Assembly: GCA_019748295.1 (NCBI GenBank)
Contig: JAIEPT010000024.1
Location: forward strand, 1-64,000
From: Gemmataceae bacterium
GTDB taxonomy: Bacteria; Planctomycetota; Planctomycetia; Gemmatales; Gemmataceae
DNA length: 64,000 nucleotides
Direction of reading: 5' to 3'
Below are positions 2,029-54,330 of the stretch, piece by piece (position 1 is the first letter of the stretch; every line of letters begins with the position of its first letter). The position numbers were made by a program, and so were the translations under genes. The notes under the pieces are model-generated. The model did not search any database. It worked only from the letters and a program-made list of their open reading frames with translations, and was not told where the DNA came from.

Positions 2029-2235
2029 TCTGACGTTCACATGTTTCCATCCGTTAGCGCCTCGCCTCTCCCGCACCACCCGTTCTCGTGCATGAACGTG
2101 TTCTTCGGGAAAAACTCAAGCAAAGAGCCGGTTTTGCCGACCATGCCGATTTTTCGTGCTAAGGTTTTGTCGTTGACGGCCAACGCTCCCGTCCGGAGCG
2201 GCAGCCGGCGACATTTACGGAACGGTATCCGCGAT

Positions 2236-2311
2236 ACGGCAAACCCGTCGTGAGGCGGGGACGCAAAGCCATGGGCCTCGATCGGTGGATCGAGGTTGCC
2301 AGGTTGCCTAT
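2236..2311 (+). ncRNA. cyclic-di-GMP-I (GEMM-I) riboswitch aptamer
   Basis: All the conserved parts of the GEMM-I aptamer are present: GGCAAACC (2238-2245), a P2 stem 2244-2249/2254-2259 with a GTGA tetraloop, the invariant GGACGCAAAGCC (2259-2270), a P3 stem CCTCGATC/GATCGAGG (2276-2283/2288-2295), then TTGCCAGGTTGCC (2296-2308), whose end pairs with GGCAA to close P1. It binds the second messenger c-di-GMP and should control the HtrA-like gene 30 bases downstream. Nothing else is recognisable in 2029-2235. Confidence 0.95.
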
Positions 2312-2327
2312 GGCCTTCCCTAAGGCC
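2312..2327 (+). promoter_or_regulatory. hairpin between the riboswitch and the ribosome binding site
   Basis: GGCCTT and AAGGCC pair around a CCCT loop. The hairpin sits directly between the c-di-GMP aptamer and the GAAAGGA ribosome binding site (2328-2334). It has no T-run, so it is more likely part of a translational expression platform than a terminator. That role is inferred. Confidence 0.5.
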
Positions 2328-5076: not shown

Positions 5077-5984
5077 ATGACTTATTATCAGCTCGCCATG
5101 GCCGCCCTCAGCTTTTTGGCATGGTCCGCGGCCATCGCATCTGCACAGCCCGCAGCTGGTAAGGCGCTCGCCGAGCCGCCCAAGGGGTTCGACGTCGTCC
5201 GCGAAGGATCAGCTCGCGGCAAGATGGAAACGGTCGAATACGATTCGAAGACCGTCGAGATGCGACGCAAGGCGAAGGTGTACACGCCGCCGGGGTACGA
5301 CAAGAACGCGAAGTATCCCGTCCTCTATCTGCTGCACGGCACGGCATCGGCGGCGACGACAACGAATGGGCTCGCGGCGGGGCGCCGAACGTCATCCTCG
5401 ACAATCTCTACACCGACAAGAAGGCGACGCCGATGATCGTCGTGATGCCGAACGGCCGCGCGTCGAAGACGCTCACGGCCCGAGATCCGATCCCCAAACA
5501 ATGGCCGGCGTTTGCGCTCTTCGAAAAGGACCTGCTCCACGATCTGATCCCGTTCATTGACAAAACGTACCCCGCCCAAACGGATCGCGAATCGCGTGCG
5601 ATCGCGGGGCTTTCGATGGGAGGCGGGCAGTCGCTGAACTTCGGCCTGGGAAACCTCGATACCTTCGCCTGGGTCGGCGGGTTCTCATCCGCTCCCAACA
5701 CGCGTTCGCCTGCGGCCCTGATCAAAGATCACGCGGAGGCCGCCAAAAAGCTACGACTGCTTTACGTTGCGTGTGGCGACAAAGACGGGCTGTTCAAGAT
5801 CAGCCAGGGCGTGCATGCGATGCTCGATGAGAAGAAAATCCCGCACCTCTATCACGTGATTCCCGGCGGCGGCCATGACTTTCGTGTGTGGAGAAGCGAC
5901 TTGTGGCGATTCGCCCAACTCGTCTTCCGCGATCGCGAGCCGGACGTTTCGTCCGAGAAGGGCGCGGGCACCCCATCTCCGTGA
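5077..5984 (+). pseudogene. secreted esterase (esterase D/feruloyl-esterase-like), frameshifted by a 5-bp duplication
   Basis: The gene encodes an alpha/beta-hydrolase of the PF00756 putative esterase family. The first part (5077 onward) has a signal peptide and reads YPVLYLLHG. The continuing homology GIGGDDNEWARGG lies in another frame and runs to 5984. The break is a tandem duplication of ACGGC (5336-5340 and 5341-5345); removing one copy restores LLHGIGGDDNEW. The catalytic residues are intact downstream: Ser in GLSMGGGQS, Asp in GDKDG and His in GGGHDFRVW. AAGGAAAG precedes the start. Members act on carbohydrate esters outside the cytoplasm. It is a recent pseudogene, a phase-variable site or a sequencing error. 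Confidence 0.85.
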
Positions 5985-8673: not shown

Positions 8674-8850
8674 GCGACCGGCGCCTGCATTTCCCCTCTC
8701 TCCCTCCGGGAGAGTCCGGGAGAGCGGGGCCGGGGAGGGGCCGGGGGTGAGGGCGTGCGGGTTGGCGTTACGTGAGAAAAGGCAACCCTCACCCCAACCC
8801 TCTCCCGGAGGGAGAGGGAGGTAGACTAGCTCCCGCCGCTCACCTAAGAG
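8674..8850. repeat. REP-like inverted repeat, family R1
   Basis: Two facing copies of the CTCTCCC/GGGAGAG unit with GGTGAGGG and its complement, and outer ends resembling GCGACCGGCGCCTGCATTTC and GAGCCGCTC-type sequence. The unit GGGAGAGTCCGGGAGAG is locally duplicated in this copy. It fills the space after the iron-permease-like gene. Confidence 0.75.
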
Positions 8851-8896: not shown

Positions 8897-8927
8897 GAGC
8901 CGCAAGCGTCATCAACGCTTGCGGCTC
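8897..8927. terminator. perfect 13-bp hairpin after the selenoprotein gene
   Basis: GAGCCGCAAGCGT (8897-8909) pairs perfectly with ACGCTTGCGGCTC (8915-8927). It lies 23 bases past the stop of the minus-strand selenoprotein gene. There is no long T-run on either strand, so termination is plausible but not certain. Confidence 0.5.
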
Positions 8928-8949
8928 TCGCGGAAAAAGAGGCGGCTCC

Positions 8950-9189
8950 CTATTTTTTGGCCAGCCCCGAGACGGTTTCGAGAATCGCTTTTTCGTCGGG
9001 GAATCGGCCTGTGGCGAGTTTGGAGTAGACGAGTTCGCCGTTGATGGTCAGTTCGAAGCACCCGCCGCTTGCGGGAATGAGGGTGCAACCCTTGATCTTC
9101 TGCTTGAACGCGTTGAGCAATTTCGCCGTCAGACTGACGGCTTGCGGCTCGTAGTTTCACATGGAGCAGTATTTGAGTTCCAAATGCAT
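8950..9189 (-). CDS. SelW/Rdx-family selenoprotein with in-frame UGA (Sec11)
   Basis: Reading the minus strand from the ATG at 9189, codons give MHLELKYCSM, then TGA (9159-9157), then NYEPQAVSLTAKLLNAF and on to a TAG at 8950. That makes 79 residues, with U at position 11. The resulting C8-x-x-U11 motif, the following NYEPxAVSLT and the C-terminal FELTINGELVYSKLATG block match the Rdx (SelW/SelT/SelH) thioredoxin-like redox family. Directly after the UGA a perfect 7-bp hairpin GCCGTCA-GTC-TGACGGC (9141-9125) lies with its loop 22 bases from the UGA and a G as first loop base, as in bacterial SECIS elements. AAGGGGAG sits 6-7 bases upstream of the ATG. Standard gene callers would miss it. Confidence 0.88.
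9125..9141 (-). promoter_or_regulatory. bacterial SECIS-like hairpin
   Basis: Seven perfect base pairs and a three-base loop (GTC on the coding strand), starting 15 bases past the UGA codon. Bacterial SECIS elements lie inside the coding region at 16-37 bases from UGA to loop and carry a G among the first loop bases; both conditions hold. It should recruit SelB with Sec-tRNA. Confidence 0.75.
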
Positions 9190-9275
9190 GCCGATCTCCC
9201 CTTCGGTAGTCGCTGGACGCTGTCGGGTCCAGATTGCGACAATAAGTTGGTCCTTCACCCATTCTAGGCACGCGC

Positions 9276-9725
9276 ATGGCCGGCTATCCTCCAACAATCG
9301 TGGTTCGCAGTCCGAAAGAGAATCCGAAGAAGTGTTCGATCCTTCCGCTCAAGGGCCGGGAGGACATGCTCTTCTTCAACTATCCGCTCACGCGGTCGTT
9401 CGATTGGACGAGATATGTTCGACTTGCGCCGGATGCCCCCGAACTTTCGGATGCAGATGCCGAGCGCGGATTGCTGCTGATCGACGGCAGTTGGCGTTGG
9501 GCGGCGACGATGAGCGATGATTTCTTAGTCGCCGAGCCGCGGTCTTTGCAAGCATTCGCAACGGCTTATCCGCGTGTCTCGAAGCTCGGAACTGATCCGC
9601 GGGAAGGACTTGCGACGATCGAGGCACTCTACTTGGCGTACCGAATCTTGGGCCGCTCCACGCTGGGTCTGCTCGAACACTATCGCTGGGCAGACGAGTT
9701 TCTCCGGAAAAACGGGCTTTCTTAA
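9276..9725 (+). CDS. Tsr3-like (DUF367) aminocarboxypropyltransferase homologue
   Basis: A 149-residue protein that aligns by eye with Tsr3, the SPOUT-like enzyme that adds the acp group to a hypermodified pseudouridine in archaeal and eukaryotic small-subunit rRNA. Matching blocks are the N-terminal NPKKCSILPL (RCT-type), LLLIDGSWRWA (IDCSWA in Tsr3), the ATIEALYLAYRILG helix and the C-terminal YRWADEFLRKNG. The substrate in a bacterium is unclear. It is divergent from the selenoprotein gene with an 86-base gap. The ATG at 9276 has only a weak upstream site (TAGG). Confidence 0.65.
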   Translation: MAGYPPTIVVRSPKENPKKCSILPLKGREDMLFFNYPLTRSFDWTRYVRLAPDAPELSDADAERGLLLIDGSWRWAATMSDDFLVAEPRSLQAFATAYPRVSKLGTDPREGLATIEALYLAYRILGRSTLGLLEHYRWADEFLRKNGLS

Positions 9726-20163: not shown

Positions 20164-20865
20164 ATGAGCCGCCTCTCGGATCCCGCCATCCTCGAACCGC
20201 ACAAAAACGGCGAAGCAGCCGTTACCACCAAGGCCGATTCCCCTTGGCTGTTCAATACCGGCGAAGTCCGCATCCTCATCCTCGACGACGATCCGGCCAT
20301 CGGCCGACTGATTCAGGCCGCGTTGGCGAATCACGACTTCACCATCGACGCGATCTCCGACCCGACGACGATGGAACAGCAGCTTCGCAGCCACACCTAC
20401 CACGTCGTCATTCTCGACTACGTGATTCCCGGCCATGAGCCGCAGAAGATGCTGGAAACGGTGAAGGAGACGCAGGCGGATGCGAGCATCATCGTGGTCA
20501 CCGCGTTCCCTTCGATGGACAGCGCGGTGCAGTGCCTGCGTAGCCATACCTACGACTACATCACCAAGCCGTTCCAAATCGAGCAACTCAAGCGAACCGT
20601 CATGCGTTGCCTGGAAAGCCGCGGCCTCTTGCGTCTCTCGGAAGAAGCCCTCCGCGAACAACTCGGCGCCGCCATCCGCGAACGCCGCAAGGCGTTGAGC
20701 CTTACGTTGGCCGAAATGGCGAAGCGGACCAACGTATCGCTCGGCTATTTGTCGCAGATCGAACTGGGCAAGAACTCGGCATCGATCGAAACGCTCTACC
20801 GGATCGCATTGGGCCTTCGTCTGCGGGTCGCGGACCTCTTTCAATCCGTGCAAACGCCGCTCTAA
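20164..20865 (+). CDS. response regulator with XRE-type helix-turn-helix output
   Basis: A 233-residue protein with a receiver domain (residues 35-155; phospho-acceptor D85 in VVILDYVIPG, acidic pair DDD41-43, lysine in ITKPFQ) and a C-terminal Cro/C1-type HTH (about 165-228: LSLTLAEMAKRTNVSLGYLS). REC joined to XRE is an uncommon output arrangement. It probably regulates transcription downstream of the kinase-like protein encoded just before it. AAGGA precedes the ATG. Its receiver is intact, unlike that of its partner. Confidence 0.9.
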   Translation: MSRLSDPAILEPHKNGEAAVTTKADSPWLFNTGEVRILILDDDPAIGRLIQAALANHDFTIDAISDPTTMEQQLRSHTYHVVILDYVIPGHEPQKMLETVKETQADASIIVVTAFPSMDSAVQCLRSHTYDYITKPFQIEQLKRTVMRCLESRGLLRLSEEALREQLGAAIRERRKALSLTLAEMAKRTNVSLGYLSQIELGKNSASIETLYRIALGLRLRVADLFQSVQTPL

Positions 20866-21014
20866 GGCGAGCGGCAGGAGATGGCCTACCCCCCTCTCCC
20901 TCCGGGAGAGGGTTGGGGTGAGGGTGCTTTTTCTCGCGCAACGCCACGTCGCACGCCCTCACCCCCGGCCCCTCTCCCGGAGGGAGAGGGGAGAAATGCA
21001 GGCGCCGCTCGCCT
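20865..21014. repeat. REP-like inverted repeat, family R1
   Basis: A well-preserved copy: ends AGGCGAGCGGCAGGAGATGG and AATGCAGGCGCCGCTCGCCT, with CTCCCTCCGGGAGAGGGTTG and its counterpart inside. It starts right at the stop codon of the regulator gene. Confidence 0.85.
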
Positions 21015-21223
21015 AATCGCTCAGACGAAGGCAGGGCCGTTGTGGGGCGATCACTTGCCGCATTGGGGTGGGGAAGGGCGATTGAGTTCGGCCTTCCCTA
21101 CCCCTAAACGGCATCCACAGGCAGTTCTTCAGAACTTACTGTGCATGACGAGACTTTTGCGGGATGCTATACCAGCCGCCTAACAGCGGCTTGCTCGCGC
21201 TTTCCCACAGGAGAACTTCCGCC

Positions 21224-28019: not shown

Positions 28020-28130
28020 TGACTCCCCTCTCCCTCCGGGAGAGGGGCCGGGGGTGAGGGCGAACCATCGCGTTCAACGAAGAAAGGCACGCTCACCCCA
28101 ACCCTCTCCCGGAGGGAGAGGGAGAATGCA
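28020..28130. repeat. REP-like inverted repeat, family R1 (short copy)
   Basis: CTCCCTCCGGGAGAGG and GGGTGAGGG face CTCACCCCAACCCTCTCCCG about 40 bases later. It lies exactly between the sdhA stop and the inserted nuclease gene, and its right end supplies the purine-rich GAGGGAGA that serves as ribosome binding site. Confidence 0.75.
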
Positions 28131-53931: not shown

Positions 53932-54330
53932 CGGTTTGCTCCGCTCTCCCCTCTGGGGAGAAAGGCTGGGGGTTGAGGGGAATAAGCGGTGCACAAGGTT
54001 CATATCGTGCACCAAGCCGCAGGGCAAGCGCAGCGCACCCTGGGGGGCGCGCCTGCGGACTGATCCCCACCGTGCGTTCCGCTTAGGCGAGCGGCAGGAG
54101 CTCGTCTACCTCCCTCTCCCTCCGGGAGACCGGGAGAGGGTTGGGGCGCCTTTTCTCGCCCAACGCCGCGTCGCACGCCCTCACCCCCGGCCCCTCTCCC
54201 GGACTCTCCCGGAGGGAGAGGGGAGAAATGCAGGCGCCGCTCGCCTTACGATGGGGGTTGGCGGAGAATAACATACTACTGCATCGCTCACTCCCCTCGC
54301 CCCGAGCCCCTTCTTCCGGAGGGAGAGGAG
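53932..54330. repeat. cluster of REP-like inverted repeats, family R1
   Basis: A complete copy (54085-54246, ends AGGCGAGCGGCAGGAGCTCG and GCAGGCGCCGCTCGCCT) is flanked by partial units at about 53938-53980 (CTCTCCCCTCTGGGGAGA) and 54285-54330 (CCTTCTTCCGGAGGGAGAGG). The whole gap between glcD and the beta-propeller gene consists of this family plus short unmatched sequence. Confidence 0.75.

Follow-up and report, generated by a model that had tools for sequence, protein, structure and literature searches.

A predicted SelW-like selenoprotein gene in a Gemmataceae planctomycete, with a conserved in-frame UGA, a SECIS-type hairpin and selD as the adjoining gene in many relatives

SelW-like selenoproteins with the PF10262 domain and a CxxU redox motif are already known from bacteria, and in Sec-decoding organisms these proteins mainly occur in the selenocysteine form, with few Cys homologues (Zhang et al., 2006, PMC1794560; GOS survey, PMC2398784; review, PMC13188914). 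Recent reviews give their motif solely as CxxU. In the 2006 survey the Planctomycetes, then represented by one or two genomes, constituted an exception to the SelD-containing phyla (PMC1794560). Epsilonproteobacterial SelW genes were entirely overlooked in annotation (PMC4607533), while for SelW from Campylobacter jejuni (CJnc60) a full-length product extending past the UGA has been shown by Ribo-seq and proteomics (PMC11955535). The gene described here shares with the known bacterial SelW-like selenoproteins the domain, the CxxU motif, the small size and a bacterial SECIS element downstream of the UGA. The resemblance extends to the C. jejuni and epsilonproteobacterial proteins, which are likewise small (80-81 aa), were missed by annotation, and depend on UGA decoding via tRNA-Sec and on a short SECIS hairpin in whose loop one G is invariant (PMC11955535; PMC4607533). 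Campylobacter, however, belongs to a distant phylum and its SelW is backed by Ribo-seq and proteomic proof, whereas the present gene is predicted from sequence. As bacterial SelW-like selenoproteins are known and the Campylobacter one has been demonstrated by proteomics, the gene adds another, very well supported member to this family and not a new kind of selenoprotein.

The window, i.e., the whole analysed stretch of 64,000 nucleotides, stems from a 6.47-Mb draft genome of the Planctomycetota (399 contigs, about 94% complete), and Planctomycetota also supply the nearest named SelW relatives, among which are several Gemmataceae or Gemmatales. On the minus strand, the selW-like frame (8950..9189) begins with ATG at 9189, contains a single internal stop, TGA at 9159-9157 (codon 11), and ends with TAG at 8952-8950. 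Reading through the TGA as selenocysteine yields the 79 residues that a preliminary description had predicted, with exact coordinates (MHLELKYCSMUNYEPQAVSLTAKLLNAFKQKIKGCTLIPASGGCFELTINGELVYSKLATGRFPDEKAILETVSGLAKK), and the good ribosome binding site claimed for the gene is found as the Shine-Dalgarno-like sequence AAGGGGAG at 9203-9196, 6 nt before the ATG. An overlapping ORF of 121 aa in a different frame (8912..9277, minus strand) is probably spurious and a likely mistake of gene callers at this locus, as several relatives have stops in this frame. Standard gene callers would end at the UGA or pick this wrong-frame ORF. Since the latter covers the gene and epsilonproteobacterial SelW genes were also missed, it is plausible that the selW-like gene has been overlooked.

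Assignment to the SelW/Rdx family was based on profile searches in which U was replaced by Cys. The Rdx profile PF10262 matched residues 3-73 with 73 bits (curated cut-off 22.6; E=2.3e-20), and its alignment spans both sides of the UGA, just as had been proposed. TIGR02174 (CXXU_selWTH) gave 71 bits against a cut-off of 34.2, while the score for the NCBIfam equivalog NF041051 (SelTWH_Campy), 79.2 bits, lies under the cut-off of 88 bits, which places the predicted protein in the same superfamily but outside that equivalog. Among proteins of known structure, 2fa8 is a relative (E=1.5e-10), and the alignment with solved Rdx structures covers almost the entire protein. The redox motif, C8-S-M-U11, is located near the N-terminus, and C8 and U11 align with the CxxC of 2fa8 and other solved Rdx proteins, so that the motif is rightly placed. 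The Cys-form proteins 2fa8, 2p0g and 2obk thus agree with the window gene in family and motif position but have Cys where it has Sec.

The 68 codons 3' of the UGA received a strong coding score in a coding-potential scan of the window, and in close pairs of relatives the dN/dS of these codons amounts to about 0.06-0.2 (dS 0.08-1.45 vs. dN 0.01-0.10), values that point to purifying selection. That conservation after the stop codon argues against chance, as originally put forward, is sustained by this coding score and by the conserved TGA, the covariation and the codon bias described below. The same constraint bears on the idea that the UGA is a regulatory stop, with read-through acting as a selenium sensor and a 10-aa peptide as the usual product. 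The UGA comes very early, at codon 11, and little would be wasted by termination, but the coding constraint spans the entire length and a full-length SelW product has been observed in C. jejuni (PMC11955535); we consider such a regulatory stop highly improbable.

A search of the genome for selA, selB, selC and selD returned all four, each over its curated cut-off, i.e., SelA with 576 bits, SelB with 385 bits, SelD with 346 bits and tRNA-Sec with 73.8 bits and a TCA anticodon, in agreement with the claim that the organism uses selenocysteine. The SelD gene itself has an in-frame TGA within DYASCAGUAGK, and therefore the recoding serves a second gene of this genome as well. A global reassignment of UGA can be dismissed, because genes in the window end more often with TGA (20 of the 47 rough gene calls) than with either TAA or TAG; several relatives terminate selW itself with TGA. 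These observations weigh against a decoding of UGA as some other amino acid, be it by global reassignment or by near-cognate suppression. The frame would be open whatever sense meaning UGA has, and one relative has Gly at the UGA position (see below), yet TGA is in regular use as a stop, tRNA-Sec, SelA, SelB and SelD are all encoded, the UGA occupies the known Sec position of SelW, and the hairpin discussed in the following is specifically conserved. We give this explanation only a minute probability.

When every TGA in the window was examined by the coding-potential scan for other Sec candidates, one further case emerged (TGA 49360-49358, minus strand, followed by 95 open codons). It was rejected, because the part downstream has an ATG of its own and looks, by eye, like a separate small protein of the zinc-ribbon (Trm112-like) type. 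An Rfam scan of the whole window detected no Sec-related RNA, only a c-di-GMP riboswitch (c-di-GMP-I-GGC, 2229-2312, plus strand, 64 bits).

The SECIS-type hairpin, GCCGUCA-GUC-UGACGGC, is located at 9141-9125 on the minus strand, with arms at 9141-9135 and 9131-9125 and the loop GUC at 9134-9132, whose first base, a G, is reached 22 nt downstream of the UGA. Folding of the single sequence gave a z of about -2.1 relative to dinucleotide shuffles, which is weak alone, and tests on an alignment of 99 distinct codon-aligned sequences were therefore used. Among these, the inner five base pairs of the stem are paired in 88-100% of sequences and the outer two hold in 54-67% of relatives. The perfect 7-bp hairpin of the preliminary description, including the spacing and the G at the start of the loop, is thus present in the window, whereas conservation across relatives is confined to the inner 5 bp. 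Exchanges in the stem comprise G-C to A-U, C-G to U-A and C-G to G-C, with 28 double-change cells compared to a mean of 5 and a maximum of 12 in 500 shuffles, a test that ignores phylogeny and codon constraints. Control partners slid by 1-3 columns reached only 22-56% pairing. The loop dinucleotide GU is retained in 87 of the 99 sequences, and AGT encodes the loop Ser in 67 of 75 sequences, compared to 5.5% of Ser codons in the rough gene calls of the window, a choice that the hairpin forces. In 11 sequences with GTG in place of GTC (e.g., L022, L023, L030 and L048) a hairpin displaced toward the UGA by about 4 nt can be drawn, CAGGC-CGUGA-GCCUG, again with GU in the loop, and this predicted structure represents an alternative SECIS register.

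Codon 11 is exactly TGA, and never another type of stop, in all 109 homologous loci fetched first, 79 of which derive from named GTDB records and which overlap somewhat with the following set of phylum genomes. A SelW-like match was obtained in 138 of 392 sampled Planctomycetota genomes, in 136 of them in the TGA form; Sec-encoded SelW is accordingly widespread in the phylum. TGA-SelW and selA occur together in 124 genomes, SelW alone in 12, selA alone in 118 and neither in 138 (odds ratio 12, nominal p=2.5e-20, the genomes being related); the 12 of the 136 TGA-SelW genomes in which selA was not detected are mostly draft assemblies. Of 102 genomes from the order to which the window genome belongs, SelW was matched in 80, and selA exceeded its cut-off in 90. 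Frameshifts or random stops at the codon in relatives had been named as evidence that would count against the gene; later-fetched relatives contributed one Gly codon (GGT, giving CxxG, in L168 from G644, a genome that retains selA) and one frameshifted selW (L169 from G408, a one-contig genome that retains selA and tRNA-Sec), the latter reflecting either a recent loss or a sequencing error. That the locus is a pseudogene, derived from a Cys-form Rdx gene through a nonsense mutation, fits the stop within the frame and the frameshifted copy in G408, but is of virtually negligible probability given TGA in 109 of 109 loci and in 136 phylum genomes, the fact that TAA or TAG never occurs at this codon in the loci read, and the low dN/dS after the UGA across the phylum.

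We are hardly in doubt, from the combined sequence evidence, that the locus represents a functional selW-like selenoprotein gene (Rdx, CxxU) in a Sec-decoding planctomycete. The recoding step corresponds to the established bacterial pathway of SelA, SelB, SelC and SelD plus SECIS. A ribosome would arrive at the UGA at codon 11, the hairpin 22 nt downstream would recruit SelB with Sec-tRNA-Sec, Sec would be inserted, and translation would run on to the TAG. Family membership predicts a small thioredoxin-fold protein, here of about 8.7 kDa, in which Cys8 and Sec11 form a redox-active pair undergoing selenenylsulfide exchange.

In a few species the motif itself deviates. In two congeneric species, TGA occupies both codon 8 and codon 11 (RYUAMUGYEP; L060:3001-3240 (= L130) and L064:3001-3240 (= L131)), with a dN/dS of about 0.1 between them, while codon 8 reads TGT/TGC in their sister species from that genus (L132, L133). 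A third UxxU case, L166 (KYUSMU), has a CxxU sister and shows signs of recombination or assembly mixing. G456 shares synteny and about 92% DNA identity with G526, yet from codon 9 onward the two do not differ at all for about 230 nt. Because recombination or assembly mixing could account for this, we propose that UxxU arose independently in G456 only tentatively. UxxU SelW proteins are predicted to be capable of diselenide formation, with one SECIS element perhaps serving two UGAs 9 nt apart, and they offer natural double-Sec proteins for studying the decoding of closely spaced UGAs.

With regard to gene neighborhood, the counts refer to loci picked by similarity to the window protein and are not phylum-wide frequencies. 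Divergently oriented to selW, with its start 86 nt from the selW start, lies a gene for a DTW/DUF367(Tsr3)-like protein (9276..9725, plus strand; weak DTW and DUF367 matches), and 21 of the 110 distinct loci whose upstream sequence was long enough share this divergent arrangement. On the downstream side, 112 distinct loci were long enough for inspection, and in 27 of them selD follows directly on the same strand after 24-347 nt (e.g., L052, L071, L078, L102, L132 and L146, of which L078 comes from Aquisphaera insulae, a cultured Sec-decoding relative); in 25 of these 27 cases SelD is Sec-encoding (CxxU, CxGU). Planctomycetota thus differ from their portrayal in the 2006 survey (PMC1794560) in that Sec-form SelW is widespread and often adjoins selD. 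In the literature searched, which was covered in part, no mention of a selW-selD pair was found. In the window genome itself the two genes occur on separate contigs, and the link comes from the relatives.

To our knowledge, no physiological role of bacterial SelW has been established. Given that selW is followed by selD in many relatives, the likeliest role, in our tentative view, is that of a thiol/selenol reductase or carrier connected with selenium metabolism. A more specific scenario, possible but doubtful, is that planctomycete SelW acts in selenium supply as part of a SelW-SelD pair, usually with both partners Sec-encoded, SelW reducing or carrying selenium for selenophosphate synthesis and being diselenide-capable as UxxU in few species. 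The selW-selD pairing and the UxxU variants may be taken as a hint in this direction, and the pairing provides a concrete, testable lead on the cellular function of bacterial SelW.

Dispersed, partly palindromic intergenic repeats of the CCTCTCCCTCCGGGAGAGGG type are located in the window at 166-274, 8700-8850, 20860-21019, 28026-28124 and 54079-54244, and one also lies upstream of selD in L018. A shared repeat may have separated selW from selD in the window genome, a link that is tentative given how common the repeat is. A putative esterase (5077-5984, plus strand) is split over two overlapping frames of 119 and 183 aa, which reflects either a frameshift or an assembly error.
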